From Piscinibacter sp. HJYY11 (GTDB taxonomy: Bacteria > Pseudomonadota > Gammaproteobacteria > Burkholderiales > Burkholderiaceae_C), in NCBI RefSeq assembly GCF_016735515.1, contig NZ_JAERQZ010000001.1, positions 4,700,746-4,764,745 on the forward strand: a stretch of DNA of 64,000 nucleotides, given 5' to 3'. The position numbers were made by a program, and so were the translations under genes. A model generated the notes under the pieces. That model was not told the DNA's origin. It was given only the letters and a program-made list of their open reading frames with translations, and did not search any database. Shown here piece after piece: positions 41,736-60,984 of this stretch; the first letter of the stretch is position 1, and the number at the start of each line of letters is the position of its first letter.

Positions 41736-43136
41736 ATGCAGGGCCCGCTTGAGCAAAACCGCACCAACATGAACACATTCCGGCGATGGGCCGCGGCAGC
41801 CGTGCGCAGCGTGTTCTTCCGGAAGCCGTCGCTGGAAGGCCTGAGGATCGGGCCGCTCGGGCTGGTGCTCCTGGCCGGGCTGCTGCTGGCCACCAGCGTG
41901 GTGGTGCAACGCCTCCACATCCCGGGCCCGGCGCTCTTCTACTGGCAGTCTCTCGGTGGCGGGTGGCTCGGCACGGTGCTTTTCATCCTGGCGTGCTGGA
42001 TGGCGGCCCGCGGCACGCTGCAAGACGGTGCATCGGTGCTGCTGGCGCTGGTGTGCCTGGTGCAGATGCTGATCTCCTGGCCCTTGTGGGGCGCGTACTT
42101 CGTGGCCGAACGCTGGCTGCCGGACGGTCTTCCAGCGGGGGCCGGGGCCATGCAGTACCTGCTCTGGGTTCCGATGGGCTGGACGACCCTTGCCAATGTG
42201 GTGCTGCTCGCTCGCCATGCCGAGCGAGGCACCACGCGCGCCGGCGTCGTCCTTGTGGTGGCCGCGGCGGTGGCCGTGAGCCTGTACCTTCCGCGCAGCG
42301 GCTTCTGGTACCCCGACATGAGCGCTGCCGCCGACGAGCTCGAAGACAAGCGCCTGCAGCTCAGCCAGGAGGTGCTGGAAGCCCAGTCGGCCAGCGTGGT
42401 GTCGACCCTGCAGGCCCTGCAACCCCAGCGCCCCGGCGTGGCCGACGTCTATGCCATCACCTTTGCGCCCTACGCCGGCGAAGAAGTCTTCCGCCGTGAG
42501 AGCCGGCTCGTGAGCCAGCTGATGCAGGAGCGCTTCGACGCGCAGGGCCGCACGCTGTCGCTCATCAACCATGCCGAGACCGCACGCGAGCTGCCCTGGG
42601 CCACCGGGCTCAACCTGCGCCGCGCCATCCAGCAGGTGGCGAGCCTGATGGACCGCGAGGAAGACATCCTCTTCATCCACCTCACCTCGCACGGCGCCCG
42701 CGACGGCCGTCTCGCTGCGCAGTTCGACCCGCTGGAAGTCGACGAGCTCACGCCCGAGAAGCTGCGCGCCTGGCTCGACGAGGCCGGCGTGCGCTGGCGC
42801 GTGCTGTCCATCTCGGCGTGTTACTCGGGCTCGTGGCTGCCCGCGCTCGCCGACCCGGGCACGCTCACGATGACCGCGGCCGATGCGACGCACACCTCCT
42901 ACGGCTGCGGCCGCGGTTCCGAGCTCACCTATTTCGGGCGCGCGATGTATGCCGAGCAGCTGCGCAAGACGCGCTCGTTCGAGGCCGCGCATGCGGCGGC
43001 TCGCGAAGTGATCGATCAGCGCGAGAAGGCGGCCCGCAAGACCGACGGCTACTCCAACCCGCAGATCCAGATGGGCGAGGCGATCCGCCCCAGGCTCGCC
43101 GAGCTGGAGAAGCGGCTCGATGCTGCGGCGCAGTGA
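41736..43136 (+). CDS. Membrane-anchored C13 (legumain-like) family peptidase
   Basis: A 466-residue protein. About five membrane segments (45-190) precede a soluble caspase-like fold with [20 protein letters not shown], the catalytic His319 in [11 protein letters not shown], and Cys362 in [15 protein letters not shown]. This His-Gly/Ala-Cys arrangement is the C13 legumain/GPI-transamidase pattern. The start ATG 41736 follows GGGAAGG by 5 bases. The catalytic domain is probably periplasmic or cytoplasmic depending on topology, which I could not settle. The substrate is unknown. No immediate operon partner: dcd follows with its own -10-like box. Confidence 0.85.
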
Positions 43137-44738: not shown

Positions 44739-45479
44739 TCAGCCGCCGACCCAGCGCTCCTCCGACGCCTTGAGGTGCGACCGCATCGCGGCCTGCGCGG
44801 TGAGCGGGTCGCGGGCCTCGAGCGCGCGGTAGATCGCCTCGTGCTCCTTGAGCGCGGTGTTCCAGGTGCGGGTGTTCTCGAAGCGCACGCTCAGGTGCGA
44901 CGAAATCGGGCTGTGGCGTTCGTCGAACAGCTCCGACACCAGCCGCACCATCACCGAGTTGCCGGTCATCTCGGCCAGCGTGATGTGGAACTGCCGGTCG
45001 TGCCCGAGCGGCGAAAGCCCCTGCGCAATCTGCCCGCGCATCCCCTCGATGCTCTCGCGCAGGCGCGACAGCGCCTCGGGCGTGACGTGGGCGCAGGCCA
45101 GAACCGCCACGTCGCCCTCCACCGCGGCGCGCGCCTGCATGAGCTCGATCGGGCTCTCGCCCATGGCCTCAGTGCTCTTGGCCGGTCGCTCGGGCGGGTT
45201 GCACACGTAGACGCCCGAGCCGCTGCGGATCTCGACGCTCAGCTCGATGTCGAGTGCGATCAAGGCCTCGCGCAGCGAAGGTCGCGAGACCCCGAGCTGC
45301 TGCGCCAGGTCGCGCTCCGGCGGCAGCTTGCTGCCGGGCTTGAAGACGCCGCGCTGGATCAGGTCGCGGATCTGGTCGGCGATCTGCTGATAGAGGCGCC
45401 GAGTCTCGACGGGGCGGAGTTGCGAAGCGGCGGAGAGTGCGGAGGTGGGCACGGCGTGCTTTGAAAGTGGCCTGACCAT
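44739..45479 (-). CDS. FadR/FCD-type GntR transcriptional regulator of the sugar operon
   Basis: A 246-residue regulator: an N-terminal GntR winged helix (YQQIADQIRDLIQRGVFKPGSKLPPERDLAQQLGVSRPSLREALIALD) and a helical FCD effector domain with DRQFHITLAEMTGNS and KEHEAIYRALEARDPLTAQAAMRSHL, which carries the metal-binding Asp/His set. It is divergent from the transport and catabolic operon across 215 bases and most probably represses it in the absence of a pathway sugar acid. UxuR/ExuR of E. coli, which respond to hexuronates, are of the same class. Confidence 0.9.
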   Translation of the reverse strand: MVRPLSKHAVPTSALSAASQLRPVETRRLYQQIADQIRDLIQRGVFKPGSKLPPERDLAQQLGVSRPSLREALIALDIELSVEIRSGSGVYVCNPPERPAKSTEAMGESPIELMQARAAVEGDVAVLACAHVTPEALSRLRESIEGMRGQIAQGLSPLGHDRQFHITLAEMTGNSVMVRLVSELFDERHSPISSHLSVRFENTRTWNTALKEHEAIYRALEARDPLTAQAAMRSHLKASEERWVGG

Positions 45480-45598
45480 GATAGCCGACCTCCCGCTCCG
45501 GGCGCCTGATCCGTGCAAGGCGAACTTTGGCGGGATACCTATGGAAAGTACCTAAATTCGGCCTTTTTACCTCGTATGGCGGGCTGATTCCAGGCGCC

Positions 45599-45615
45599 TT
45601 TTGGTCAGGCCAGAA
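45599..45615 (+). promoter_or_regulatory. Candidate GntR operator upstream of the sugar operon
   Basis: TTTTGGTCAGGCCAGAA is an imperfect palindrome with 13 of 17 positions symmetrical and a TTGGT/CCA core, similar to TTGGTNNACCAA-type sites bound by FCD-type GntR proteins. It lies 80 bases before the TTG start of the first transporter gene. A second looser site, TTTGG (45623-45627) with CCAAA (45641-45645), is nearby. TACCTA occurs twice at 45536-45541 and 45549-45554. Confidence 0.4.
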
Positions 45616-45694
45616 GACGAATTTTGGCAAGGTGGCTTTACCAAATCTTGACCGATCACTACGATCGCTTCCCTCCACTCGCCAAGGGGTCCCT

Positions 45695-47293
45695 TTGTCC
45701 GTCCAGCTCGTCCACGACCACCTGTCCGCCCGCCTCGACAGCGGCCGGGCGCAGGTCGCGCCGGCCACCACCGTGTCAGCGACGGGCGAGCTCCTGCGGC
45801 TGGAAGGCATCTGCAAGCGCTTCTTCAACGTGGTCGCACTGTCGGGCGTGAGCCTCACGCTCCAGCGGGGCGAGGTCCACGCGGTGTGCGGCGAGAACGG
45901 TGCCGGGAAGTCGACGCTGATGAAGATCATCAGCGGCCAGTTCGCGCCCGACGAGGGCACGCTCTCGTACAAGGGGCAGCCGCGGCGCTTCGGCTCGACC
46001 CAAGAGGCCCAGGCTGCGGGCATCGCGATGATCCACCAGGAGCTGAACCTGGTGCCGCACCTGTCGGTGGCCGAAAACATCTACCTCGCCCGCGAGCCTC
46101 GCCGTGGTTGGTTCATCGACCGGGCCCGGCTCCAGGCCGATTCCACCCGCTGCCTGCAGCGCCTCGGCGTCGACATCGCGCCGCAGGCCATCGTGCGCAC
46201 GCTCTCGGTGGCGCAGCGCCAGATGGTGGAGATCGCCAAGGCACTCTCGCTCGACGCGGAGCTGCTCATCATGGACGAGCCCACCTCGTCGCTCACCGAA
46301 GCCGAGACACGCCAGCTCTTCAAGGTGATCCACGAGCTGCGCCGCGGCGGCGTGGGCATCCTGTACATCTCGCACCGGCTCGACGAGATGCAGGGCGTCG
46401 TCGACCGGGTCACCGTGCTGCGCGACGGCCGCTACATCGCCACGCACGACTTCGCCGACACCAGCGTCGACGAGATCGTCGAGCGCATGGTGGGCCGCCC
46501 GCTGGACGACAAGTTCCCGCCGGCCACGCGCACGCCCACCGACGAGGTGCTGCTGTCGGTGTCGGGCCTCACGCGCCAGGGCGCCTTCCACGACGTGCGC
46601 TTCGAGCTGCGGCGCGGCGAGATCCTCGGCTTCGCCGGCCTGATGGGCGCGGGGCGCACCGAGGTGGCCCGGGCGGTCTTCGGCGCCGACCCGGTCGACG
46701 CCGGCAGCGTGAGCCTGCGCGGCCGGGTGCTGTCGATTGCCTCGCCCATCGATGCCATCGCCGAGGGCATCGCCTACCTCTCCGAAGACCGCAAGGCCCA
46801 CGGCCTCGCGCTCGACATGACCGTCGCGCAGAACGTGACGCTCGCGCGCACCGATGCGGTGGCGGGCCGGCTCGGCTTCATCCGTTTCGCCGAGGAGGCA
46901 GCGGTGGCCCAGCGCTACGTCGACACGCTCTCGATCCGCACGCCGTCGGTGCACCAGAAGGTGCGCCATCTCTCCGGTGGCAACCAGCAGAAGGTCGTGC
47001 TCGGCAAGTGGCTCTTCCGCGATTCGCAGGTGCTCTTCTTCGACGAGCCCACGCGAGGCATCGACGTGGGCGCCAAGTACGCGATCTACCAGCTGCTCGA
47101 CGCGCTGGCCGCGCAAGGCATCGGCGTCGTGCTGATCAGCTCCGAGCTGCCCGAGATCCTCGGCATGACCGACCGCGTCGCCGTGTTCCACGAAGGGCGC
47201 ATCACCGACATCGTCGAGACGCGCCACACCACGCAAGAAGCCCTGATGCACCTGGCCTCGGGGCGTACGTTTCCTGAGCGACCTACCGCATGA
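45695..47293 (+). CDS. Sugar ABC transporter ATP-binding protein (RbsA/XylG type)
   Basis: A 532-residue tandem ATPase. The first domain has CGENGAGKSTLMKIISG, RTLSVAQRQMVEIAKAL and LLIMDEPTSSLTEAE. The second has the degenerate P-loop GLMGAGRTEVARAVFG with LSGGNQQKVVLGKWL and LFFDEPTRGIDVGAKY. Such fused ATPases drive CUT2 importers of monosaccharides. I place the start at TTG 45695, since AAGGGG lies 6 bases upstream and no ATG or GTG in frame has a better site; translation from farther upstream would run through the operator region. It overlaps the permease gene by 4 bases. Confidence 0.93.
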   Translation: MSVQLVHDHLSARLDSGRAQVAPATTVSATGELLRLEGICKRFFNVVALSGVSLTLQRGEVHAVCGENGAGKSTLMKIISGQFAPDEGTLSYKGQPRRFGSTQEAQAAGIAMIHQELNLVPHLSVAENIYLAREPRRGWFIDRARLQADSTRCLQRLGVDIAPQAIVRTLSVAQRQMVEIAKALSLDAELLIMDEPTSSLTEAETRQLFKVIHELRRGGVGILYISHRLDEMQGVVDRVTVLRDGRYIATHDFADTSVDEIVERMVGRPLDDKFPPATRTPTDEVLLSVSGLTRQGAFHDVRFELRRGEILGFAGLMGAGRTEVARAVFGADPVDAGSVSLRGRVLSIASPIDAIAEGIAYLSEDRKAHGLALDMTVAQNVTLARTDAVAGRLGFIRFAEEAAVAQRYVDTLSIRTPSVHQKVRHLSGGNQQKVVLGKWLFRDSQVLFFDEPTRGIDVGAKYAIYQLLDALAAQGIGVVLISSELPEILGMTDRVAVFHEGRITDIVETRHTTQEALMHLASGRTFPERPTA

Positions 47294-48273
47294 ACGACCG
47301 ACAGCAAGACCTCGTCCAGAAGTTCGCCGCGCTCGGCAGCCTGCTCGCGCTCACGCTGGTGTTCTCGATGATCAGCGACGCCTTCTTCACGATGGGCAAC
47401 GGCCTCACCGTCGCGCTGCAGGTGACGTCCATCGCCTACCTCGGCATCGGCGCCACCTGCGTGATCATCACCGGCGGCATCGACCTCTCGGTGGGATCCA
47501 TCCTCGCGCTGTCGGGCGTGGTGGCGGCGCTGCTCGTCAAGGCCGGCTGGCCGGTGCCGGTGGGCATGCTCGCGGGCTTGGTGATCGGCGCCGTGTGCGG
47601 CCTGGTGAACGGGCTGTGCGTGACGGTGCTCAAGCTCCCGCCCTTCATCGCCACGCTCGGCATGATGCTCGTGGCGCGCGGGATCGCGCTGCAGATCACC
47701 GAGGCGCGTGCGATCGGCGGGCTCGGCGAGAGCTTCGCCGCGCTCGGCAACGGCAGCCTCTGGCGCATCGTCAACGTGGGGGCCGATGGCTTCCCTGACG
47801 TCGTCTTCCCCGGCATTCCTTACCCGGTGCTGCTGATGATCGTGCTGGCCGTCGCCGTGGCGGTGATGCTCAACCGCAGCACGCTCGGGCGCCATCTCTA
47901 CGCCGTGGGCTCCAACGCCGAGGCGGCTCGGCTCTCGGGCGTGAACGTGGCCCGCGTCACCGTCTTCGCCTATGTGCTCTCGGGTCTGCTCGCGGGCCTG
48001 ACCGGCTGCGTGCTGATGTCGCGCCTGGTCACGGCCCAGCCGAGCGAGGGCCTCATGTACGAGCTCGATGCGATCGCCGCCGCGGTGATCGGCGGCACCT
48101 CGCTCAGCGGCGGCGTGGGCACCATCAGCGGCACGCTGATCGGCGCCTTCGTGATCGGCATCCTGCGCAACGGTCTGAACATGGGCGGCGTCTCCGCCTT
48201 CGTGCAGCAAATCATCATCGGCCTGGTCATCCTGCTCACGGTGTGGATCGACCAGATGCGCCATCGACGATGA
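47290..48273 (+). CDS. Sugar ABC transporter permease (RbsC type)
   Basis: A 327-residue permease with about ten membrane segments. IAYLGIGATCVIITGGIDLSVGSILALSG and LPPFIATLGMM are the recognisable CUT2 motifs, along with YAVGSNAEAARLSGVNV (the loop contacting the ATPase) and AVIGGTSLSGGVGTISGTLIGA. It forms the membrane channel with the ATPase encoded upstream (ATGA overlap) and the binding protein encoded 70 bases downstream. Confidence 0.95.
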   Translation: MNDRQQDLVQKFAALGSLLALTLVFSMISDAFFTMGNGLTVALQVTSIAYLGIGATCVIITGGIDLSVGSILALSGVVAALLVKAGWPVPVGMLAGLVIGAVCGLVNGLCVTVLKLPPFIATLGMMLVARGIALQITEARAIGGLGESFAALGNGSLWRIVNVGADGFPDVVFPGIPYPVLLMIVLAVAVAVMLNRSTLGRHLYAVGSNAEAARLSGVNVARVTVFAYVLSGLLAGLTGCVLMSRLVTAQPSEGLMYELDAIAAAVIGGTSLSGGVGTISGTLIGAFVIGILRNGLNMGGVSAFVQQIIIGLVILLTVWIDQMRHRR

Positions 48274-48280
48274 ACCCCCA

Positions 48281-48298
48281 CCGGGCGGCACAGCCCGG
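48281..48298 (+). other. Intercistronic hairpin between permease and binding-protein genes
   Basis: CCGGGC and GCCCGG form a perfect 6-bp stem around a GGCACA loop, 8 bases after the permease stop. There is no T tail. Such hairpins often protect the 3' end of an upstream message or set unequal expression of a binding protein relative to its transporter; that function here is inference. Confidence 0.45.
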
Positions 48299-48343
48299 CA
48301 TTCCACACAGAGTCAAACGTTCATTGAAGCAGAAGGAGACAAC

Positions 48344-49300
48344 ATGAGACACGTGATGAAGCATCTGGCGGGTGCGGCGGTGGCCGCCGTCCTTGGCCTG
48401 GCGAGTGTTGCCGCGGTGGCGGCCGACAAGGAGATCGCGGTGATCGTGAAGACGACCAACAGCGACTTCTGGCAGAACGTGAAGAAGGGCGCCAACGACG
48501 GCGTGGCCGGCATCAAGGGCTACACCACCACCTTCCAAGGCGCGGCGTCCGACACCGACCTCGCGGGCCAGGTAGCGCTGGTGGAGAACGCGGTCAACCG
48601 CAAGGTGGCCGGCATCGTGCTCGCCCCGAGCGACCCGGACGCGCTGATCCCGGCGATGAAGAAGGCCTGGGAAGCGAAGATCCCGGTGATCCTGATCGAC
48701 TCGGCCGCGTCGGATGCCGGCAAGAACTACTACCAGTCGTTCCTGGCGACCGACAACAAGAAGGCCGGCGAGCTGTGCGCGCAGGCGCTCATCGCCAAGA
48801 TCGGCACCACCGGCAAGATCGCGATCATGTCGTACACCGCCGGCTCCGGCTCCGAGATCGGGCGCGTGGGCGGCTTCAAGGACTACATCGCCAAGCACTC
48901 CAAGCTTCAGGTCGTCGGCCCGTTCTATTCCAACTCGCAGATGGGCACGGCGCTCAACCAGACGACCGACGTGCTGGCCGCCAATGCCGACCTGAAAGGC
49001 ATCTTCGGCGCCAACGAGCCCACCGCCATCGGCATGGGCCGCGCGCTGGTGCAGGCCGGCAAGGCGGGCAAGGTGGTGGCCATCGGCTTCGACGGCAACG
49101 CCGACCTTCAGGGCTTCATCAAGGACGGCACGCTGGAGGCCATCGCCGTGCAGAGCGCCTACCAGATGGGCAGCCTGGGCGTGAAGACGGCCGTCGAGGT
49201 GGCGCAGGGCAAGAAGGTGCCGAAGTTCCGCGACACCGGTGTCGTGATGGTGACCAAGGCCAACATCGACAAGCCCGAGGCGAAGAACGTCCTTTACTGA
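48344..49300 (+). CDS. Periplasmic sugar-binding protein (RbsB type)
   Basis: A 318-residue protein with a signal peptide (about 1-27, ending AVAA) and the periplasmic binding protein 4 fold: KEIAVIVKTTNSDFWQNVKKGANDG, AGIVLAPSDPDALIPAMKKAWEAKIPVILIDS, SGSEIGRVGGFKDYI and KGIFGANEPTAIGMGRAL. It is the substrate receptor of the CUT2 importer. A strong AGAAGGAGA ribosome binding site precedes the ATG, consistent with the excess of binding protein needed. The ligand is inferred from the downstream enzymes to be L-galactose, L-fucose or a similar sugar. Confidence 0.94.
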   Translation: MRHVMKHLAGAAVAAVLGLASVAAVAADKEIAVIVKTTNSDFWQNVKKGANDGVAGIKGYTTTFQGAASDTDLAGQVALVENAVNRKVAGIVLAPSDPDALIPAMKKAWEAKIPVILIDSAASDAGKNYYQSFLATDNKKAGELCAQALIAKIGTTGKIAIMSYTAGSGSEIGRVGGFKDYIAKHSKLQVVGPFYSNSQMGTALNQTTDVLAANADLKGIFGANEPTAIGMGRALVQAGKAGKVVAIGFDGNADLQGFIKDGTLEAIAVQSAYQMGSLGVKTAVEVAQGKKVPKFRDTGVVMVTKANIDKPEAKNVLY

Positions 49301-49336
49301 TCACGCCTCGAGCACGCCCGCCACCGAGACGCGCGC

Positions 49337-50353
49337 ATGAAGCACACCGATCGCCGCAAGCTGCCGCGTGCCGACCTGTCGGTGCCGGTGTTCGGCCTCG
49401 GGTGCGCGCAGCTCGGCGGGCTGTTCCAGCCCATGACCGACGCTGGCGCCGGGGAGCTCGTGGACGCGGCGTGGGGCGAAGGGGTGCGCTTCTTCGACAC
49501 CGCGCCGTACTACGGCTACACGCTGTCGGAACGCCGCCTGGGTGCAGCACTCGCGCGCCGCCCGCGCGAGGACCACCTGCTCAGCACCAAGGTCGGCCGC
49601 CTGATGGTCCCCGACGCCAGCGTGCGGCCTGGCGATGATGGCTTCGCAGAGCCCTTGCCCTTCAGGCCGCGCTACGACTACAGCCATGCCGGCGTGATGC
49701 GCTCGTTCGAGGACAGCCTGCAGCGCCTCGGCGTGGCCAAGGTCGACATCCTCTTCGTCCACGACATCGGCCGCGTCACCCACGGCGAGCGTCATGCTCA
49801 CCACTGGGAGCAGCTCACGCGCGGCGGCGGCTTCCGTGCCCTGGAGACGCTGCGCCACGAAGGGCGCATACGGGCCTTCGGCCTGGGCGTGAACGAATGG
49901 GAGGTCGTGCACGACGCGCTGCAGGAGGCCGACCTCGACATCAGCATGCTGGCCGGCCGCTACACGCTGCTCGAGCAGCACAGCTTGTCGCCGCTGCTCG
50001 CCGAGAGCGCGCGGCGCGGGCATGCCATCGTGGTGGCCGGGCCCTTCAACTCCGGCGTGCTCGCCGGCGGCGGCCACTTCAACTACGGCCGCGCGCCCGC
50101 GGGCGTGCTCGAGCGTGTGTCGCGGCTCGAGGCGGTGTGCCGCGAGTTCGAGGTGCCCTTGCCCGCCGCGGCGCTGCAGTTCCCGCTGGCGCACCCGGCC
50201 GTGGTGTCGTGCGTCGCGGGCGCGCACGATGCCGCCCAGCTGCGCCAGAACCTCGCCTGGCTGCGCCACCCGGTGCCCGATGCGCTCTGGCTCGCACTGC
50301 GCGACCGCGGGCTTCTCGACGAACGCGCGCCCTTGCCGCGCCAAGGCAGCTGA
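49337..50353 (+). CDS. Aldo/keto reductase, L-galactose/L-fucose (D-threo-aldose) 1-dehydrogenase-like
   Basis: A 338-residue AKR. The tetrad residues are visible in RFFDTAPYYGYTLSERRLG (Asp, Tyr), STKVGR (Lys) and FVHDIGR (His). PVFGLGCAQLGGLF and FNSGVLAGG with FNYGRAP are shared with D-threo-aldose 1-dehydrogenases and plant L-galactose dehydrogenase, which oxidise L-galactose, L-fucose or D-arabinose at C1 to the lactone. It precedes the lactonase by one base. The choice among these three sugars cannot be made from sequence. Confidence 0.88.
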   Translation: MKHTDRRKLPRADLSVPVFGLGCAQLGGLFQPMTDAGAGELVDAAWGEGVRFFDTAPYYGYTLSERRLGAALARRPREDHLLSTKVGRLMVPDASVRPGDDGFAEPLPFRPRYDYSHAGVMRSFEDSLQRLGVAKVDILFVHDIGRVTHGERHAHHWEQLTRGGGFRALETLRHEGRIRAFGLGVNEWEVVHDALQEADLDISMLAGRYTLLEQHSLSPLLAESARRGHAIVVAGPFNSGVLAGGGHFNYGRAPAGVLERVSRLEAVCREFEVPLPAAALQFPLAHPAVVSCVAGAHDAAQLRQNLAWLRHPVPDALWLALRDRGLLDERAPLPRQGS

Positions 50354-50354
50354 C

Positions 50355-51194
50355 ATGCACATCATCGACGCCCACCAGCACTTCTGGCGGCTTGCCGACC
50401 GCACCGGCCACTGGCCGCCACCGGCGCTGGCCGAGATCCACCGCGACTTCGGCCCGGAGGACCTGCTGCCCCTGCTCGAGCGCTGCAGGGTGGCTGGCAC
50501 GGTGCTCGTGCAGTCGCTGCCCACCGTGGCCGACACCGAGCAGCTCCTGCGCATCGCCGACCGGCACGACTTCGTGCGCGGCGTGGTGGGCTGGGTGGAC
50601 ATGAAAGCCCCCGATGCCCCCGCCCAGATCGCCCGGCTGGCCCGGCACCCGCGCCTCAAGGGCCTGCGCCCGATGCTGCAGGACCTGGGCGACGATCGCT
50701 GGATCGCCGCCCCCTCGCTCGATGCCGCCGTGGGCGCGATGCTGGAGCACGGCCTGTGCTTCGACGCGCTCGTGCTGCCGCGGCACCTGCGAGCGCTGCT
50801 CGAATTCGCGCAGCGCCATCCCGCGCTGCCGATCGTGATCGACCACGCCGCCAAGCCCGTGATTCCGCGGGGCGAGCTCACGGCGTGGCGGCACGACCTC
50901 GGCGCACTGGCGGCCCTCACCCAGGTGCATTGCAAGCTCTCGGGCCTGCTCACCGAGGCCGGACCGTTCCCGCACGAGCTGCGCCTGCAGCCGTGGATGG
51001 AAGTGGTGTACGGCCTTTTCGGGCCGCAGCGCCTCATCTGGGGCAGCGACTGGCCGGTGCTGCGGCTGGCGGGCAGCTACGAGGGCTGGCTCGCGATGGC
51101 CATCCGCTTCTGCGAAGCGCAACCCGGTGCCGACAGCGGCACTCTCGATGCGGTCTTCGGCGGCAACGCACGCCGCGTCTACCGGCTCGGCTGA
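50355..51194 (+). CDS. cog3618 amidohydrolase, L-fucono/L-galactono-lactonase-like
   Basis: A 279-residue TIM-barrel hydrolase beginning MHIIDAHQHFWRLADRTGHWPP with the HxH metal site, continuing with PRLKGLRPMLQDL, PIVIDHAAKPVI, VHCKLSGLLTEA and LIWGSDWPVLRLAG (terminal catalytic Asp). The cog3618 branch includes characterised L-fucono-1,5-lactonase and rhamnono-lactonase. It would hydrolyse the product of the preceding dehydrogenase to L-galactonate or L-fuconate. It lacks a signal peptide, so acts in the cytoplasm. Confidence 0.9.
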   Translation: MHIIDAHQHFWRLADRTGHWPPPALAEIHRDFGPEDLLPLLERCRVAGTVLVQSLPTVADTEQLLRIADRHDFVRGVVGWVDMKAPDAPAQIARLARHPRLKGLRPMLQDLGDDRWIAAPSLDAAVGAMLEHGLCFDALVLPRHLRALLEFAQRHPALPIVIDHAAKPVIPRGELTAWRHDLGALAALTQVHCKLSGLLTEAGPFPHELRLQPWMEVVYGLFGPQRLIWGSDWPVLRLAGSYEGWLAMAIRFCEAQPGADSGTLDAVFGGNARRVYRLG

Positions 51195-51205
51195 AGGCAC
51201 CCCGC

Positions 51206-51535
51206 ATGCAACGCATGGGCATGGTCATCGGCATCGCAGCGGAGCACATCGCCGAGTACAAGCGCCTGCACGCCGGCGTGTGGCCCGGCGTGCTCGAGCG
51301 CATTCACCGCTCGCACATCCGCAACTACAGCATCTTCCTGCGCGAGCCGGAGAACCTGCTGTTCGGCTACTGGGAGTACCACGGCCGCGATTTCGAGGCC
51401 GACATGGCGGCCATCGCCGCCGACCCCGAGACGCAACGCTGGTGGCGCCTGTGCGGCCCGTGCCAGGTGCCGCTTGCGTCCCGACAACCCGGCGAACACT
51501 GGGCCTCGATGGCCTCCGTGTTCCACGTCGACTGA
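51206..51535 (+). CDS. L-rhamnose/L-fucose mutarotase family protein
   Basis: A 109-residue protein of the RhaM fold. RMGMVIGIAAEHIAEYKRLHAGVWPGVLERI and the IRNYSIFLREPENLLFGYWEYHG segment match the RhaM/FucM-like family, with the conserved His in LHAGVWP and Tyr in YWEYHG. It speeds interconversion of alpha and beta anomers of a 6-deoxy- or L-sugar so the dehydrogenase gets its preferred form. It lies 11 bases after the lactonase gene. Confidence 0.9.
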   Translation: MQRMGMVIGIAAEHIAEYKRLHAGVWPGVLERIHRSHIRNYSIFLREPENLLFGYWEYHGRDFEADMAAIAADPETQRWWRLCGPCQVPLASRQPGEHWASMASVFHVD

Positions 51536-51557
51536 ACCGAAGTCCACCAGGAAAGAC

Positions 51558-52568
51558 ATGCTGACCGTCATCTGCCAGACCCCTCGCGAGTTGCGCGCCG
51601 AAGAGCGCCCGTGCCCCACGCCCGGGCCCGACGAGGTGCTGCTGCGCGTCAAGCGTGTCGGTGTCTGCGGTACCGACCTGCACATCTTCACCGGCCACCA
51701 GCCCTACCTCGCCTATCCGCGTGTGATGGGGCATGAGCTGTCGGGCGTCGTGGAGTGGGCGCCCCGTGCGAGCGGCCTGCGCGCCGGCGACCCAGTCTTC
51801 GTGATGCCCTACCTCTCGTGCGGCCGTTGCATCGCCTGCCGCCAGGGCAAGACCAACTGCTGCGTCGACATCCAGGTGCTGGGCGTCCACCGAGACGGTG
51901 CCTTCACCGAATACCTCTGCGTGCCCGCGGGCTTCGTGCACAAGGCCGACGGCGTGTCGCTCGACCAGGCGGCGATGGTCGAATTCCTCTCGATCGGCGC
52001 GCATGCGGTGCGGCGGGGCATGGTGCGTGCGGGCCAGCGGGTGCTGGTGGTCGGTGCCGGGCCCATCGGCATGGCAGCGGCGATCTTCTCCGGCCAGCAG
52101 GGCGCCGCGGTGACCGCCCTCGACACGCGCCGCGACCGCCTCGAGTTCTGCGAGCGCCACCTGCAGGTGAGCGCCACGGTACAGATCGGCGAGGACGACG
52201 AGGCCCGCCTCTCGGCGCTCACCGATGGCGAGTTCTTCGACGTGGTGTTCGACGCCACCGGCAACGCGCGTGCGATGGAGCGCGGCTTCAAGTTCGTGGC
52301 GCACGGCGGCAGCTACGTGATGGTGTCGGTGGTGCGCGATGCGATCACCTTCTCCGACCCCGAATTCCACAAGCGCGAGACCACGCTGCTGGGCAGCCGC
52401 AACGCGACGATGGAGGATTTCGAGACCGTGCTCTCTGCGATGCGAGCGGGCCGGGTGCCCACTGATGCGCTGAACACCCACCGCATGCCGCTCGCCCGCG
52501 TGCCCGACGATTTCGCCTCGCTGCTCGACCCGGCGCAAGGCGTGGTGAAGGCCATCGTCGAATGCTGA
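51558..52568 (+). CDS. Zinc-dependent dehydrogenase, L-galactonate 5-dehydrogenase (LgoD)-like
   Basis: A 336-residue MDR enzyme with catalytic zinc residues in VGVCGTDLHIFTG and MGHELSG, structural zinc cysteines in SCGRCIACRQGKTNCC, and Rossmann motif VVGAGPIGMAA. Several segments (YPRVMGHE, CRQGKTNCC, IGAHAVRR, FSDPEFHKRETTLLGSRNAT) resemble E. coli LgoD as I recall it. LgoD oxidises L-galactonate at C5 to D-tagaturonate, exactly the substrate of the next gene's family. The start ATG 51558 follows AGGAAAG. It overlaps the next gene by 7 bases. Confidence 0.87.
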   Translation: MLTVICQTPRELRAEERPCPTPGPDEVLLRVKRVGVCGTDLHIFTGHQPYLAYPRVMGHELSGVVEWAPRASGLRAGDPVFVMPYLSCGRCIACRQGKTNCCVDIQVLGVHRDGAFTEYLCVPAGFVHKADGVSLDQAAMVEFLSIGAHAVRRGMVRAGQRVLVVGAGPIGMAAAIFSGQQGAAVTALDTRRDRLEFCERHLQVSATVQIGEDDEARLSALTDGEFFDVVFDATGNARAMERGFKFVAHGGSYVMVSVVRDAITFSDPEFHKRETTLLGSRNATMEDFETVLSAMRAGRVPTDALNTHRMPLARVPDDFASLLDPAQGVVKAIVEC

Positions 52569-53707
52569 ACGATCGCGCCGCGCTGCCGATCCTGCAGTTC
52601 GGCACCAGCCGCTTTCTTCAGGCGCACGTCGACCTCTTCGTGTCACAGGCCCTTGCGGAAGGCCGGGCGCTCGGGCCGATCGCCGTGGTGCAGACGACGC
52701 GCAGCGCCGAGAGCGCGGCGCGCGTGCGGGCGCTCTCGGCCGGGGGAGGCTACCCGGTGCGCGTGCGTGGCCTGCAGCGCGGCATGCCGGTCGACGTGGA
52801 GCTGCGCGGGGAGGCGGTGCACGAGGCGCTCGACGCGGCATCGGCCTGGCCGCGCGTGCGTGAGCTCGCCTGCGGCGCCCAGGTGATCGTCTCCAACACC
52901 GGAGACGCCGGCTATGCGCTCGACCCGCTCGACGACGCCCGCCTGCTGCACGAAGCGGCGAGCGTGCCGCGCAGCTTTCCGGCGAAGCTCGTAGTGCTGC
53001 TGCATGCGCGCTGGCAGGCCGCGCCGGAGTCGCCGCTGTCGATCTACCCCTGCGAGCTCGTGGCGCGCAACGGCGAGGTGCTGCGCAGCGTGGTACTGCA
53101 GCTCGCGCGGGCCTGGTCGGCGCCGGAGGCGTTCATCGCCTACCTCGGGCAGCACTGCTGCTGGGCCAACTCGCTGGTCGACCGCATCGTGTCGGACGCG
53201 ATCGCGCCGGTGGGCGCGGTCGCCGAGCCCTATGCGCTGTGGGCCATCGAGCGGCAGCCGGGACTGGTGCTGCCGTGCACGCACGAGTCGATATTGCTCA
53301 CCGACGAGCTGGCGCGCCACGAGCGCCTGAAGCTGCTGCTGCTCAACCTCGGCCACACCTTCCTCGCCGAGCGCTGGCTGCAGGCCGGCCGGCCGCCGGG
53401 CTCGACGGTGCTGCAGGCCATGCACGACGAGGCCCAGCGTGCCGAGCTCGAGGCCCTGTGGGCCGAGGAGGTGCTGCCGGTGTTCGAGGCGCTGGGTGAG
53501 CGCGAGGCGGCGCTCGACTACCTCGACGCGCTGCGCGACCGGCTGCTCAACCCCTTCCTCGCACACCGCCTGGCCGACATCGCGCAGAACCACGAGCAGA
53601 AGAAGCAACGCCGCCTCGCGCCTGCCGTGCAGCTGGCCCGCGAGCTGCGGCTGCCGCTTGCGCAGCGCCGGCTGCGCCTGGCCCTGCACAGCCCGATAAC
53701 CGCGTGA
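52562..53707 (+). CDS. Mannitol dehydrogenase family protein, tagaturonate reductase (UxaB)-like
   Basis: A 381-residue NAD-dependent enzyme. ILQFGTSRFLQAHVDLFVSQAL is the Rossmann start of the polyol-dehydrogenase family, VIVSNTGDAGY and PCELVARNG follow, CCWANSLVDRIVSDAI is the substrate loop, and LLNLGHTFLAE contains the lysine/histidine region. It is about 100 residues shorter than E. coli UxaB. Family members reduce D-tagaturonate to D-altronate or fructuronate to mannonate. Position between LgoD-like and UxaA-like genes favours tagaturonate. Confidence 0.82.
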   Translation: MLNDRAALPILQFGTSRFLQAHVDLFVSQALAEGRALGPIAVVQTTRSAESAARVRALSAGGGYPVRVRGLQRGMPVDVELRGEAVHEALDAASAWPRVRELACGAQVIVSNTGDAGYALDPLDDARLLHEAASVPRSFPAKLVVLLHARWQAAPESPLSIYPCELVARNGEVLRSVVLQLARAWSAPEAFIAYLGQHCCWANSLVDRIVSDAIAPVGAVAEPYALWAIERQPGLVLPCTHESILLTDELARHERLKLLLLNLGHTFLAERWLQAGRPPGSTVLQAMHDEAQRAELEALWAEEVLPVFEALGEREAALDYLDALRDRLLNPFLAHRLADIAQNHEQKKQRRLAPAVQLARELRLPLAQRRLRLALHSPITA

Positions 53708-53731
53708 TACACCCCCGACGAGAGGTTTTCC

Positions 53732-55261
53732 ATGAGCACAGCGCCGTCGCCCCTGATCCTGCTGAGCGAAGCCGACAACGTGGCGGTTGCGCGCCACGAC
53801 ATCGCCGCCGGCACGGCGCTCGCGGCGGGCCCGGTGCAGGTGGTGAGCCGCCAGGCGATCCCCTCCGGCCACAAGCTCGCGTTGCGGCGCATCGCCGCGG
53901 GCGAGGTCGTGCGCAAGTACGGGCAGGTGATCGGGCTCGCCAGCGAAGACATCGCGCCCGGCGACCACGTGCACGGGCACAACCTCGGCATGGGAGGCGA
54001 CACGCACGACCACGCGGCCGGCCGCGACTACCGGCGCACGCCGCTGGCCAACCCGCCGGCCACCTTCCAGGGGATCATGCGCCGCGATGGGCGCGTGGGC
54101 ACGCGCAACTACCTCGGCGTGATCGCGAGCGTCAATTGCTCGGCCACCGTGTGCCGCTACATCGCCGAGGCCTTCAAAGGCGACGCGCTGCGCGACCACC
54201 CGAATGTCGACGGCGTGGTCGCCATCACGCACGGCAGCGGCTGCGGCATGAGCGGCGGCGGAGAGGGCATCGAGCTGCTGCGGCGCACGCTGCGCGGCTA
54301 TGCCGACCATTCCAATTTCGCCGGCGTGCTGGTGGTCGGCCTCGGCTGCGAGGTGAACCAGGTCGCGCCGCTGGTGGAGAGTCTCAACGCGCGCGAGCCG
54401 GGCCTGGTCGCCGCGATGACCATCCAGGACGAAGGCGGCACGCGCGAGGCGGTGGCGCAGGGCCAGGCGATGCTGCGCGAGATGCTGCCGCTCGCCAACG
54501 CGGTGACCCGCACCGAGGTGTCCGCGAGTCACCTGGTGGTGGGCCTGCAGTGCGGCGGCTCCGATGGCTACTCCGGCATCAGCGCCAACCCGGCGCTCGG
54601 CGCGGCGGTCGACCTGCTCGTGGCGAATGGCGGCACCGCCATCCTCTCCGAGACGCCTGAGGTGTACGGCGCCGAACACCTGCTGACCGCGCGTGCCGCC
54701 TCGGCCGCGGTGGCCGACCGGCTGATGCAGCGCATCCGCTGGTGGGAGGACTACACCCGGGTGCACCATGGCGACATGAACAACAACCCGTCGCCGGGCA
54801 ACAAGGCCGGCGGGATCACGACCATCCTCGAGAAGTCGCTCGGTGCGGTGGCCAAGGGTGGCAGCACCGGGCTGATGGCGGTCTACGAATACGCCGAGCC
54901 GGTGCGCGAGCGCGGCCTGGTGTTCATGGACACGCCGGGCTACGACCCGGTCTCGGCCACCGGGCAGGTGGCGGGTGGTGCCAACCTCATCTGCTTCACC
55001 ACCGGTCGCGGCTCCACCTACGGCTGCAAGCCCACCCCTTCGCTCAAGCTCGCCACGAACAACACGCTTTTCAAGCGCATGAGCCTCGACATGGACTTCA
55101 ACTGCGGCGAGATCGTCGAAGGCCGGCAGACCGTGGCCGAGGCCGGCGCCGCGCTCTTCGCGCTGATGCTCGCCACGGCGTCGGGCCAGCGCACCTGCAG
55201 CGAACTGCATGGGATGGGCGACAACGAGTTCGTGCCCTGGCAACTTGGGGCGGTGATGTGA
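53732..55261 (+). CDS. Altronate dehydratase family protein (UxaA-like)
   Basis: A 509-residue two-part dehydratase: an N-terminal SAF domain (about 8-85, ending GHNLGMGG) and a long C-terminal UxaA/GarD domain with GRVGTRNYLGVIASVNCSATV, THGSGCGMSGGGEG, GLQCGGSDGYSGISANPALG, NPSPGNKAGGITTI and STYGCKPTPSLKLATNN. UxaA converts D-altronate to 2-keto-3-deoxygluconate. Relatives act on other aldonates, so L-fuconate or D-arabinonate could also be substrates. The cysteines suggest an Fe-dependent site. Its stop overlaps the next GTG start (GTGA). Confidence 0.9.
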   Translation: MSTAPSPLILLSEADNVAVARHDIAAGTALAAGPVQVVSRQAIPSGHKLALRRIAAGEVVRKYGQVIGLASEDIAPGDHVHGHNLGMGGDTHDHAAGRDYRRTPLANPPATFQGIMRRDGRVGTRNYLGVIASVNCSATVCRYIAEAFKGDALRDHPNVDGVVAITHGSGCGMSGGGEGIELLRRTLRGYADHSNFAGVLVVGLGCEVNQVAPLVESLNAREPGLVAAMTIQDEGGTREAVAQGQAMLREMLPLANAVTRTEVSASHLVVGLQCGGSDGYSGISANPALGAAVDLLVANGGTAILSETPEVYGAEHLLTARAASAAVADRLMQRIRWWEDYTRVHHGDMNNNPSPGNKAGGITTILEKSLGAVAKGGSTGLMAVYEYAEPVRERGLVFMDTPGYDPVSATGQVAGGANLICFTTGRGSTYGCKPTPSLKLATNNTLFKRMSLDMDFNCGEIVEGRQTVAEAGAALFALMLATASGQRTCSELHGMGDNEFVPWQLGAVM

Positions 55262-56241
55262 GGCGCTCGTCACCACCCCTTCGCGTGGCCTGTCTGGGCG
55301 AGTGCATGGTCGAGCTGCGCGAATCGGCCACGCCGGGGCTGCTCGCACAAGGCATTGCCGGCGACACGTACAACACGGCGGTGTACCTGCGTCGGCTCAC
55401 CTCGCCCGCCGACTTGCGTGTCGACTGCGCCACCTGCGTGGGCGGCGATCTCTTCGCACCCAGGCTCTTCGAGGCGTGGCGAGCCGAAGGCATCGGCGAA
55501 TCACTCGTGCGCACCGTGCCGGATCGAAGCACCGGTCTCTACGCGATCCGAACCGATGCGCACGGCGAGCGCCACTTCAGCTACTGGCGAGAGCGCAGCG
55601 CCGCGCGGGCTTACTTCGAGGGCGAGCCTTCGCCGCTCGAACAGCAGGCAGGCGAGATCGACGTGCTCTACCTGAGCGGCATCAGCCTCGCGATCATGGG
55701 CCCGGAGCTGCCTCCCCGACTTCGCGCGCTGCTGCACGGCCTGCGCTCGCGTGGTGCCCGTATCGTGTTCGACAACAACTACCGGCCGCGCCTGTGGGCC
55801 AGCCGAGGCGCTGCGCAGTCGGTGTTTGCGCAGCTCTACGAGATGGCCGACATCGCGCTCGTCACCCTCGAAGACGAGATGGCGCTGCAGGGGCTTGCGT
55901 CCGACGAACTCGCCTTGCAACGCACGCTTGACCTGCCTTGCGCCGAGGTGGTGGTCAAGCGTGGCGCACGGCCCACGCTCGTGCGACAGTTGGGCCACAC
56001 CCCGATCGAGGTGCCGGTGCAGACCGTGTCACGCGTCGTCGACACCACTGCGGCCGGCGACTCGTTCGCGGCGGGCTACCTAGCGAAGCGGGTGATGGGT
56101 GAGTCGGCCGTCGCGGCGGCCGAGTGGGGCAATCGGCTGGCCGCCACCGTTATCCAGCATCCTGGCGCCATCGTGCCGCCGGAGGCGATGGCGTGGGCCA
56201 CACGCCCCGCAGACCCAAGTCCCAATCGCGGCCTGCCTTGA
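55258..56241 (+). CDS. kdgK: PfkB family kinase, 2-keto-3-deoxygluconate kinase-like
   Basis: A 327-residue sugar kinase starting at GTG 55258 inside the dehydratase stop. CLGECMVELRESATPG is the KdgK-type start, with GGDLFAPRLFEAWRAEGI, FSYWRERSAAR (substrate contacts), VFDNNYRPRLWAS and the ATP/catalytic motif VDTTAAGDSFAAGYL. It would phosphorylate KDG from the dehydratase to KDPG, cleaved by KDPG aldolase (not in the window) to pyruvate and glyceraldehyde 3-phosphate. Confidence 0.9.
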   Translation: MRRSSPPLRVACLGECMVELRESATPGLLAQGIAGDTYNTAVYLRRLTSPADLRVDCATCVGGDLFAPRLFEAWRAEGIGESLVRTVPDRSTGLYAIRTDAHGERHFSYWRERSAARAYFEGEPSPLEQQAGEIDVLYLSGISLAIMGPELPPRLRALLHGLRSRGARIVFDNNYRPRLWASRGAAQSVFAQLYEMADIALVTLEDEMALQGLASDELALQRTLDLPCAEVVVKRGARPTLVRQLGHTPIEVPVQTVSRVVDTTAAGDSFAAGYLAKRVMGESAVAAAEWGNRLAATVIQHPGAIVPPEAMAWATRPADPSPNRGLP

Positions 56242-56253
56242 GGCGGACAGTCG

Positions 56254-57018
56254 ATGCACACAACCCCTTCCAGTCGCCTGCAAGGCAAGACGGCCTTCGT
56301 CACCGCCGCCGGCCAGGGCATCGGTCGCGCCACCGCCGAAGCCTTCGTGCGTGAAGGTGCGCGCGTGATCGCGGCCGACATCAACGCTGAGCTGCTGGAA
56401 TCGCTTGCGCGCGACACCGGCTGCGAGATCCGCCGCCTCGACGTGACCGACGCCGCCGCCGTGCGCGACACCGTGGGCGCGCTCGGGCCGCTGCAGGTGC
56501 TCTTCAACGGCGCCGGCTACGTGCATGCCGGGACCTTGCTCGAATGCGAAGACGCCGACTGGAACTTCTCCTTCGAGCTCAATGTGCGATCGATGTACCG
56601 CGTCATCCGCGCCGCGCTGCCCGCGATGCTCGAGCAGGGTGGCGGCTCCATCGTCAACATGGCCTCGATTGCCGGCCTGAAGGGCGTGCCCAACCGCTTC
56701 GCTTACAGCACCACCAAGGCGGCGGTGGTGGGGCTCACCAAGTCGATCGCGGCCGACTTCGTGGGCCGTGGCATCCGCTGCAACGCCATCTGCCCGGGCA
56801 CGGTGCAGTCGCCTTCGCTGCGCGAGCGCATCAGCGCCCAGGCCCGCGCCAGCGGGCAGAGCGTCGAGCAGGTCGAGGCCGCCTTCGTGGCGCGCCAGCC
56901 TGTCGGCCGCATCGGCCGCCCGGAAGAGATCGCTGCGTTGGCGGTCTACCTCGCGAGCGACGAGTCGAGCTTCACCACGGGCACCGCGCTGGTGATCGAT
57001 GGCGGCTGGTCCAACTGA
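56254..57018 (+). CDS. SDR, 2-keto-3-deoxy-L-fuconate dehydrogenase-like
   Basis: A 254-residue classical short-chain dehydrogenase: KTAFVTAAGQGIGRATAEAF binds NAD, NGAG is the second motif, the catalytic set is Ser in NMASIAG and Tyr-Lys in FAYSTTKAA, and RCNAICPGTVQSPSLRERI is a distinctive segment. The sequence is strongly reminiscent of 2-keto-3-deoxy-L-fuconate 4-dehydrogenases of the L-fucose route. It is the last gene of the operon, 12 bases after the kinase. It would serve the 6-deoxy branch, since KDG itself is handled by the kinase. Confidence 0.85.
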   Translation: MHTTPSSRLQGKTAFVTAAGQGIGRATAEAFVREGARVIAADINAELLESLARDTGCEIRRLDVTDAAAVRDTVGALGPLQVLFNGAGYVHAGTLLECEDADWNFSFELNVRSMYRVIRAALPAMLEQGGGSIVNMASIAGLKGVPNRFAYSTTKAAVVGLTKSIAADFVGRGIRCNAICPGTVQSPSLRERISAQARASGQSVEQVEAAFVARQPVGRIGRPEEIAALAVYLASDESSFTTGTALVIDGGWSN

Positions 57019-59832: not shown

Positions 59833-60984
59833 TCACTGCGGCACGGTGCCGGGAATGAGGATGCGCCGGTCGACGTTGCGGATGTCGGTGTGGCCGCAGA
59901 AGGCCATGCTCACGTCGAGCTCCTTGTAGATGAGCTCAAGGCACTTGGCCACGCCTGCCTCGCCGAGCGCGCCCAGGCCGTAGAGGAACGAGCGGCCGAT
60001 CAGCGTGCCGCGGGCACCGAGCGCCACGGCCTTGAGCACGTCCTGCCCGGAGCGGATGCCGCCGTCCATCCACACCTCGATCTTCGAGCCCACCTCGCGG
60101 GCGATCTCGGGCAATGCGGCGATGGAGGACGGCGCGCCGTCGAGCTGCCGCCCGCCGTGGTTGGAGACGATCAGTGCGTCAGCACCGCTGCTCGCGGCGT
60201 AGCGTGCGTCTTCCACGTCCATGATGCCCTTGAGGATGAGCCGGCCGCCCCAGCGCTTCTTGATCCACTCGACGTCGTTCCAGTCGAGCTTGGGGTCGAA
60301 CTGCTCGCGCGTCCAGGTGCTGAGCGAAGTGACGTCGCTCACGCCCTTGGCGTGGCCGATGAGGTTGCCGAAGCTGTGGCGCCGGGTCGTCGCCATGCCC
60401 CAGCACCAGCGCGGCTTGGTCATCAGGTTGAGGATGTTGGCGATCGTCGGCTTGGGCGGCGCGGTCAAGCCGTTCTTGATGTCCTTGTGGCGCTGGCCGA
60501 GCACCTGCAGGTCGAGCGTCAACATCAGCGCCGATACGCCGGCGGCCTTGGCGCGGTCCATCAGGCGCTCCATGAAGTCGCGGTCGCGCATCCAGTAGAG
60601 CTGGAACCAGAAAGGCGACTTGGTGTGCGCGCGGATGTCCTCGATCGAGCAGATGCTCATCGTCGACAGCGTGAAGGGGACGCCGAACTTTTCAGCCGCC
60701 TTGGCCGCGAGGATCTCGCCATCGGCGTGCTGCATGCCGGTGAGGCCGGTGGGGGCGATGGCGACCGGCATGATCGCCGGCGTGCCCGCCATCGTGGTGC
60801 GCAGCGTGCGGCCTTCCATGTTGACCGCGACACGTTGCCGCAAGAGGATCTTCTGGAAGTCGGCCTCGTTGGCGCGGTAGGTGCCTTCGGTCCACGAGCC
60901 GGAGTCGGCGTAGTCGTAGAACATGCGCGGCACGCGCCGCTTGGCGAGGACGCGCAGGTCCTCGATGCAGGTGATGGGGGTCAT
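59833..60984 (-). CDS. lldD: FMN-dependent alpha-hydroxy-acid oxidase, L-lactate dehydrogenase (LldD)-like
   Basis: A 383-residue TIM-barrel flavoprotein: CIEDLRVLAKRRVPRMFYDYADSGSW, then MPVAIAPTGLTGMQHADGE, FWFQLYWMRDRDF, ALMLTLDLQVLGQRHKD, and the active-site ALIVSNHGGRQLDGAPSS with the catalytic His-Arg, followed by EVWMDGGIRSGQDVLKA. Enzymes of this type oxidise L-lactate, glycolate or mandelate to the keto acid and pass electrons to quinone or oxygen. It lies next to the cupredoxin gene (10-base gap), so they could share a transcript. Confidence 0.9.
   Translation of the reverse strand: MTPITCIEDLRVLAKRRVPRMFYDYADSGSWTEGTYRANEADFQKILLRQRVAVNMEGRTLRTTMAGTPAIMPVAIAPTGLTGMQHADGEILAAKAAEKFGVPFTLSTMSICSIEDIRAHTKSPFWFQLYWMRDRDFMERLMDRAKAAGVSALMLTLDLQVLGQRHKDIKNGLTAPPKPTIANILNLMTKPRWCWGMATTRRHSFGNLIGHAKGVSDVTSLSTWTREQFDPKLDWNDVEWIKKRWGGRLILKGIMDVEDARYAASSGADALIVSNHGGRQLDGAPSSIAALPEIAREVGSKIEVWMDGGIRSGQDVLKAVALGARGTLIGRSFLYGLGALGEAGVAKCLELIYKELDVSMAFCGHTDIRNVDRRILIPGTVPQ

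Follow-up and report, generated by a model that had tools for sequence, protein, structure and literature searches.

A putative L-galactose operon in Piscinibacter sp. HJYY11 with a kinase and a dehydrogenase as possible parallel exits

Which sugar is degraded by the twelve genes at positions 44739-57018 of a 64,000-nucleotide stretch of the Piscinibacter sp. HJYY11 genome (hereafter the window), and what is the role of the short-chain dehydrogenase/reductase (SDR) encoded at the end of the cluster, next to a kinase? A first-pass annotation of the DNA letters had proposed a complete route from L-galactose to 2-keto-3-deoxy-6-phosphogluconate (KDPG), with a branch for L-fucose. We compared the cluster with characterized proteins, with the rest of its genome (G000; 5.6 Mb, two contigs) and with related loci, 7999 candidates being scored in each protein search. 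The nearest named proteins place the host near Piscinibacter/Rhizobacter. Each step of the L-galactose route has a sequence match, and we put at about two in three the probability that the cluster is a regulated uptake and degradation operon for L-galactose, most likely also for L-fucose, in which the SDR serves as a second exit.

Operon structure and the proposed route from L-galactose to KDPG

The operon is real. Gene calls returned the twelve genes of the first-pass annotation, one divergent GntR/FCD-type regulator (minus strand) and eleven plus-strand genes, as well as the short gaps and overlaps that it had described. With the starts as called here, distances within the plus-strand set range from -7 to +70 bases: -4 between importer ATPase and permease, 70 to the sugar-binding protein, 36 to the aldo/keto reductase (AKR), 1 to the lactonase, 11 to the mutarotase, 22 to the LgoD-like gene, -7 to uxaB, 24 to uxaA, -4 to the kinase and 12 to the SDR. 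A search of other genomes for the same gene order, which the annotation had recommended, found it in a sister genome (G003), where the identical twelve-gene set is kept in the same order with 84-97% identity per protein; the order is therefore not due to chance. A scan for sigma-70 promoters found nothing.

L-galactonate would be inverted at C5 in two steps. The zinc-type alcohol dehydrogenase (Zn-ADH) resembling L-galactonate 5-dehydrogenase (51558-52568, +) shares 43% identity with E. coli LgoD across an alignment of 335 positions, so that the LgoD-type enzyme of the route is present, and its best NCBIfam match is PRK10083 (186.6 bits, short of the cut-off of 376); it would form D-tagaturonate. 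The predicted D-tagaturonate reductase (52562-53707, +; PRK03643, 190.8 bits, cut-off 359) is a short form of UxaB, with 381 aa versus 483 and 31% identity to the E. coli protein, and would yield D-altronate. This would be dehydrated to 2-keto-3-deoxygluconate (KDG) by a UxaA-family sugar-acid dehydratase (53732-55261, +; PF08666, PF04295, PF20629), predicted to act on D-altronate and perhaps on L-fuconate. It is 37% identical to E. coli UxaA and 38% to GarD, which places it in the UxaA/GarD family, and four of its cysteines are conserved without exception across 58 aligned sequences. Four conserved cysteines are the proposed iron ligands of the UxaA family (PMC6336799).

KDG would then be phosphorylated to KDPG by a PfkB-family KDG kinase (KdgK; 55258-56241, +, with its start at 55258 or 55306), which is closest to the ketodeoxygluconokinase 3lhx (255 bits) and matches the NCBIfam KdgK family NF052444 at 307.8 bits (cut-off 400). 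The aldolase that would cleave KDPG is encoded elsewhere in the genome. Family PF01081 (Eda) has two matches, outside the operon, and the one at G000:C1:4834651 (236 bits) adjoins an IlvD/EDD-family gene at 4832980; the genome has four IlvD/EDD genes. Sequence matches are thus available for both the kinase and the aldolase of the pathway.

The first-pass names for LgoD and KdgK held; those for UxaB and UxaA need the qualification that the former is a short, distant form and the latter equally near GarD. Despite these distances, linkage to LgoD supports both assignments: in the tree of UxaA-like proteins, the clade of the window protein (support 0.98) has 23 other members, and 23 of 23 adjoin LgoD and UxaB. 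The genome's other GD_AH gene was considered as an alternative dehydratase and rejected, as it is GarD itself (918.8 bits, cut-off 730.85). A whole-genome search for UxaC gave no match, which rules out D-galacturonate as the entry point, as the annotation had argued from the cluster.

Entry would begin with uptake of the sugar by a CUT2 system, a call of the first-pass annotation that NCBIfam families confirmed, below their cut-offs. It consists of an ATPase (45695-47293, +, start uncertain; AraG/RbsA families, 558-564 bits), a permease (47290-48273, +) and a periplasmic sugar-binding protein (48344-49300, +; D-allose/ribose-binding families). The AKR (49337-50353, +; PF00248) is predicted to oxidize L-galactose or L-fucose at C1; its top five PDB matches are all L-galactose dehydrogenases, at a moderate similarity of 71-100 bits. 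The lactone would be opened by a cog3618-type sugar lactonase (50355-51194, +; PF04909, Amidohydro_2), whose single NCBIfam match is L-fucono-1,5-lactonase (191.9 bits, cut-off 400) and which matches structure 4dlf at 134 bits. The small mutarotase (51206-51535, +), expected to supply the right anomer, had been called RhaM-type. It is instead of the L-fucose (FucM) type: it matches the deposited L-fucose mutarotase 7byu at 201 bits over 108 residues, versus 26-36 bits for YiiL, RhaU and other L-rhamnose mutarotases, which excludes an L-rhamnose identity and supplies the FucM of L-fucose route III.

With the 43% identity of LgoD, the match of the kinase to 3lhx, the matches of the AKR and the absence of UxaC, homology and gene context thus support the proposed sequence, in which the operon would encode conversion of L-galactose to L-galactono-lactone, L-galactonate, D-tagaturonate, D-altronate, KDG and KDPG.

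The possible SDR exit and L-fucose branch

The last gene (56254-57018, +) encodes an SDR predicted to be a 4-dehydrogenase of L-2-keto-3-deoxyfuconate (L-KDF) and related 2-keto-3-deoxy acids (8Y11, 331 bits). All the substrate-site residues checked are retained (R148, Y151, T183, L189, R192, F211, R214 and W252); in the solved L-KDF 4-dehydrogenase (L-KDFDH) these positions are substrate-pocket and catalytic residues (PMC11199699). Four of them (R148, T183, R192, R214) make up the R-T-R-R motif of type 1 L-KDFDH (PMC11199699), and the FucF of route III is thereby represented. The published enzyme acts on L-KDF, L-2-keto-3-deoxygalactonate (L-KDGal), D-2-keto-3-deoxypentonate (D-KDP) and, weakly, D-KDG, with a preference for L-KDF of 5.3-fold over L-KDGal, 12-fold over D-KDP and 105-fold over D-KDG (PMC11199699).

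In the SDR tree, the window and sister-genome proteins (91% identical to each other, like the LgoD pair) fall in a clade with 20 other members, all 20 of which adjoin a gene of the fumarylacetoacetate hydrolase (FAH) family. A UxaA-family gene is nearby in 14 of the 20, some with TRAP transporters, and the window SDR lies outside the group of SDRs from FucD cassettes. Judged from this tree and these neighbourhoods, the SDR probably follows a UxaA-type dehydratase directly and opens a second way out next to the kinase; it need not be a side branch for L-fucose only. One dehydratase could serve both sugars, because a UxaA-family relative takes D-altronate and L-fuconate as side substrates, at 12% and 5.6% of its D-arabinonate rate (PMC6336799). 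The SDR would oxidize C4 of the 2-keto-3-deoxy acid and so offer a phosphate-free exit, which an unlinked FAH-family hydrolase would complete to pyruvate and L-lactate or glycerate. L-KDF, the 6-deoxy product of L-fucose, has no 6-hydroxyl and hence receives no 6-phosphate from KdgK, so this exit would suit it best. In a more tentative account, which we regard as possible and as falling short of even odds, both sugars pass through a single UxaA-family dehydratase and its products are sorted by the missing 6-hydroxyl, KDG going to KDPG through KdgK and 2-keto-3-deoxyfuconate to the SDR. The latter would have been recruited from SDR-FAH(-UxaA) operons, replacing the FucD-FAH-SDR cassette that other Burkholderiales carry with the same LgoD-UxaB core.

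What, then, would dehydrate L-fuconate? In proposing that L-fucose shares the entry steps, the first-pass annotation had named no enzyme for this reaction. We searched with a FucD from locus L040, verified against structure 2hne (550 bits). At E<=1e-100, 10 of 299 genomes were positive and G000 was not among them, which leaves no FucC of the FucD (enolase) type. A FucC of the UxaA type might be supplied by the UxaA-family gene, which lies in the dehydratase clade linked to LgoD and UxaB and for whose product L-fuconate is a possible substrate. The proposed L-fucose branch finds partial support, in its SDR, a close relative of L-KDF 4-dehydrogenase, and none in a FucD in the genome or a hydrolase in the operon. 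An unlinked FAH gene at G000:C1:2693799 (L154) resembles 8gsr (332 bits) and matches NF053535 at 427.7 bits (cut-off 500). It is a candidate hydrolase only, because it is unlinked and is present in genomes without an SDR match. As a dedicated partner of the SDR it is further weakened by a midpoint-rooted tree, where it joins neither of the two SDR-linked FAH groups, and by its neighbours, a cyclopropane-synthase-like gene and an EAL/GGDEF gene. Also in the window, 2.8 kb downstream of the operon, lies a gene for an FMN-dependent L-lactate dehydrogenase (59833-60984, -; PRK11197, 422.6 bits, cut-off 376), with a 94% identical gene in the same fetched stretch of G003 and no copy of the presumed operator (see below) listed nearby. 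L-fucose route III yields L-lactate as an end product.

The place of the SDR was then compared across genomes. Among 299 genomes (the window's own included) searched with UxaB, 23 were positive, 19 of them with a match of at least 54% identity. A scan of named genomes for LgoD-like sequences matched 405 stretches, 321 of which encode relatives; the best 80 of these 321 were combined with 20 further loci into a set of 100. Three pairs of loci in this set are the same contigs twice (L032/L111, L037/L092, L046/L128) and were kept in the importer and kinase counts. The CUT2-LgoD-UxaB locus is present in 14 of the 299 genomes, that of the window among them. An SDR match (E<=1e-60) was obtained in every one of these 14, versus 77 of the 285 others. 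In six genomes whose fetched CUT2-LgoD-UxaB locus lacks UxaA (G002, G005, G008, G084, G101, G152), an SDR-FAH-UxaA group is found elsewhere, in 6 of 6 cases; in G152 one gene stands between FAH and UxaA. The other 8 of the 14 have UxaA in the locus, and no such triple was seen around their SDR genes, a result that covers the SDR loci and not UxaA genome-wide in the relatives. Among 29 loci with LgoD, UxaB and UxaA, the window excluded, a PfkB kinase is present in 13 and an SDR in 10, with both in 4 (two of which, L046 and L128, are one contig) and neither in 10.

Several observations weigh against the reading of a two-exit operon. The UxaA-like and UxaB-like proteins share just 37% and 31% identity with their E. 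coli counterparts, four UxaA proteins linked to LgoD and UxaB (L060, L105, L124, L127) belong to the other dehydratase clade, and none of the operon proteins reaches an NCBIfam cut-off in the rows shown. FucD was not found in G000 at E<=1e-100, the best partial match scoring 51 bits, and the operon has no FAH (FucG) hydrolase gene. The closest FAH of the genome, L154, is also carried by the same-genus G001 and G009, both without an SDR match, and no operator copy lies near it. The SDRs nearest to that of the window in the tree, those of L193 and L195, stand next to an FAH gene but not to a UxaA gene. W252 touches the L-fucose methyl group in the solved L-KDFDH (PMC11199699); it is no proof of a role in L-fucose use, since V takes its position in 6 of 12 FucD-linked SDRs. 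D-KDG is a 105-fold poorer substrate than L-KDF for the same enzyme (PMC11199699). Finally, the G084 contig ends 393 bases after UxaB, so that 5 of the 6 loci without UxaA are certain, and the relatives are not independent (G002, G005 and G008 belong to one genus), which makes the Fisher values optimistic.

Some of these points would fit an operon for L-galactose (or L-galactonate) only, L-fucose being unused and the SDR being a passenger or relic of an SDR-FAH operon that has lost its FAH partner and contributes little. In its favour are the missing FucD and the unlinked FAH; the SDR gene also comes last in the operon, at its 3' end, and the other AKR-type operons with UxaA (L041, L043, L096, L113, L130) lack it. 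Against it, the SDR is kept at 91% identity in the window and sister genomes with all the checked substrate residues and is matched in 14 of 14 genomes with the CUT2 locus, and the mutarotase is of the L-fucose type. We consider this alternative unlikely.

A non-phosphorylating main route, through the UxaA-type dehydratase, the SDR and an FAH hydrolase, with KdgK secondary, would give pyruvate and glycerate from L-galactose, and pyruvate and L-lactate from L-fucose. The Acidovorax avenae pathway has reportedly been described in these terms, and the SDR-FAH-UxaA groups of the six relatives without UxaA in their locus and the nearby L-lactate dehydrogenase would agree with it. It appears more doubtful still than a pure L-galactose operon, as the window operon contains a KDG kinase but lacks a hydrolase, 9 of the 13 loci with a PfkB kinase have no SDR in the locus, and D-KDG is a poor L-KDFDH substrate (PMC11199699). 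We thus retain L-galactose degradation through KDPG, with the SDR as a second exit.

The regulator and its presumed sites

The divergent gene (44739-45479, -, with a possible start at 45518, 45479 or 45452) encodes an ExuR/UxuR-like GntR/FCD protein (PF00392 and PF07729) that matches ExuR at 127 bits, below the cut-off of 396. It is divergent in many related loci. Between it and the importer, at 45602-45643, lie two presumed regulator sites, TGGTCAGGCCA (45602, +) and TGGTAAAGCCA (45633, -), 31 bases apart. A third copy, TGGTCAGGCCA at 45468-45478 (-), overlaps a possible start codon of the regulator and may be a coding coincidence. These three are all the copies in the 64 kb window, and all stand in front of the operon.

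The motif TGGTMAGGCCA, with at most 1 mismatch, occurs in 43 of 44 regulator-adjacent regions, at 105 sites in 16.6 kb, versus 0.3 expected from 20 single-base shuffles; whole loci hold 298 sites in 1.92 Mb. The 44 regions include repeated contigs and five Ralstonia regions counted from both sides; without these duplicates, 88 sites remain in 13.3 kb and 35 of 36 regions have at least one, L045_PAATp being the exception. A pair spaced 28-34 bases is found in 19 of the 36, the window included, and the five Ralstonia regions have no such pair. The GntR protein presumably binds these paired sites and would control the operon through them. The motif precedes both the version of the locus with the CUT2 importer and that with a polar-amino-acid-type (PAAT) importer, and in Ralstonia it stands between two arms. 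Because it is common to all versions, the regulator probably senses an intermediate that they share.

A wider regulon was not borne out. Across the genome, 47 matches to TTGGTMAGGCCA were found when at most 1 mismatch was allowed, against 14 for the backward control; among the 30 inspected, one being the operon's own, 24 lie inside predicted genes. No further paired site is listed, and outside the operon's three sites no two matches lie within 100 bases of each other. In the open literature, 16 papers listed contain the motif strings, none of them concerned with this regulator as judged by title.

Known pathways and related loci

The chemistry proposed here is already known: it is proven in Luteolibacter, while Bacteroides and E. 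coli have its first and second halves, respectively. Closest to the operon among known systems are those of Acidovorax avenae, Luteolibacter (lgu) and Bacteroides. From L-galactonate on, E. coli LgoT/LgoD/LgoR with UxaB, UxaA, KdgK and Eda carry out the same reactions, and lgoR, whose product we take to be GntR-type, is divergent to lgoD as the regulator is here; in E. coli, however, lgoD, uxaB and uxaA are far apart and the entry compound is the acid. The L-galactose pathway of Phocaeicola (Bacteroides) vulgatus includes a lactonase, and we know of no SDR branch in it. With the window operon it shares an L-galactose dehydrogenase and an L-galactonate dehydrogenase, in another phylum (BVU_0219, BVU_0222; PMC12632266). 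The Luteolibacter lguABCDEF genes, for L-glucose and L-galactose, share the AKR, the LgoD-, UxaB- and UxaA-type enzymes, the KDG kinase and the KDPG aldolase chemistry, demonstrated there by assay and gene disruption (PMC12632266). The aldolase lies inside that cluster and the kinase, which uses PPi, outside it, whereas the window operon has the reverse arrangement. The Figure 3 legend of that paper names no importer, lactonase or SDR, and shows an rbsD-annotated gene by lguG; LguA had no activity on L-fucose (PMC12632266). No description of the exact operon was found in the open-access literature.

In Acidovorax avenae, a study of L-galactose by Watanabe et al., 2019, is said to report two dehydrogenases that invert C5 of L-galactonate to give D-altronate, an overlap with L-fucose route III, and a pathway that ends without phosphorylation. 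Compared with that description, the window operon has a KDG kinase and no FAH hydrolase. The likeness, in gene content, is a UxaA-family dehydratase tied to L-galactose, ACAV_RS08155, linked to an unidentified L-galactose metabolism (PMC6336799), and an L-KDFDH, ACAV_RS08210 (PMC11199699). Non-phosphorylating L-fucose route III comprises FucM, FucA, FucB, FucC, FucF and FucG (PMC11199699). Its mutarotase, lactonase and SDR types are all present in the window operon, whereas FucD-type FucC was not found in the genome, FucG is not in the operon, and the 1-dehydrogenase is an AKR instead of the SDR-type L-fucose dehydrogenase of route III. What belongs to the window operon itself is the kinase and SDR exits side by side, without a FucD found, and a separately derived SDR.

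Among the 100 loci, gene calls show both LgoD and UxaB in 51; five loci where the gene caller missed these genes (L047-L050 and L076, with tblastn matches present) stand outside the counts. AKR, lactonase (either type) or mutarotase genes accompany 18 of the 29 loci with a CUT2 importer, none of the 14 with a PAAT importer only, and 2 of the remaining 8. Because of this difference, the data fit import of a neutral sugar by CUT2 and of an acid by PAAT. The PAAT-type importer (PF00497 binding protein) standing before LgoD-UxaB-UxaA in L033, L037, L039, L090, L100, L116, L122 and L126 is a candidate L-galactonate importer. A fuller L-fucose cassette joins the LgoD-UxaB core in G006, G076, G106, G239 and five Ralstonia-type loci. 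It comprises an SDR, FucD and an FAH hydrolase and mostly also an SDR-type L-fucose dehydrogenase, whose identity NCBIfam verified for L040 at 403 bits (cut-off 300).

An L-sugar pathway known from few cases would thus appear in Burkholderiales as a modular kit, with a conserved core (LgoD, short UxaB, GntR and operator), exchangeable front ends (CUT2 sugar import with AKR, lactonase and mutarotase, or PAAT acid import) and exchangeable exits (KDG kinase, SDR-FAH-UxaA or SDR-FAH-FucD). Individual genes for L-galactose use can thereby be named and tested, the regulon can be defined by a conserved presumed regulator site, and how one dehydratase can feed two exits becomes open to a clear test. 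It is also a warning for annotation, as E. coli UxaA and UxaB are distant relatives of the proteins that carry their names here.

SDR-FAH-UxaA groups were seen at L159, L160, L194, L196, L198, L200, L201, L205, L207, L208 and L211, several of them accompanied by TRAP transporters, a Zn-ADH and an enolase-family gene that is 28-30% identical to FucD; they probably represent a separate sugar-acid pathway. Caballeronia-type genomes carry a 77-78% identical LgoD without UxaB or regulator (L056-L059, L061-L063, L065-L073), adjoining Sir2-family and aminotransferase class V genes. At L032, L034, L035 and L036, a gene of the NAD-dependent epimerase/dehydratase family and a second sugar-binding protein lie beside LgoD-UxaB. 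Elsewhere in the window, a dCTP deaminase-like gene is immediately preceded by one at 41736-43136 (+) whose 466 aa product contains a peptidase C13 domain (72.5 bits).

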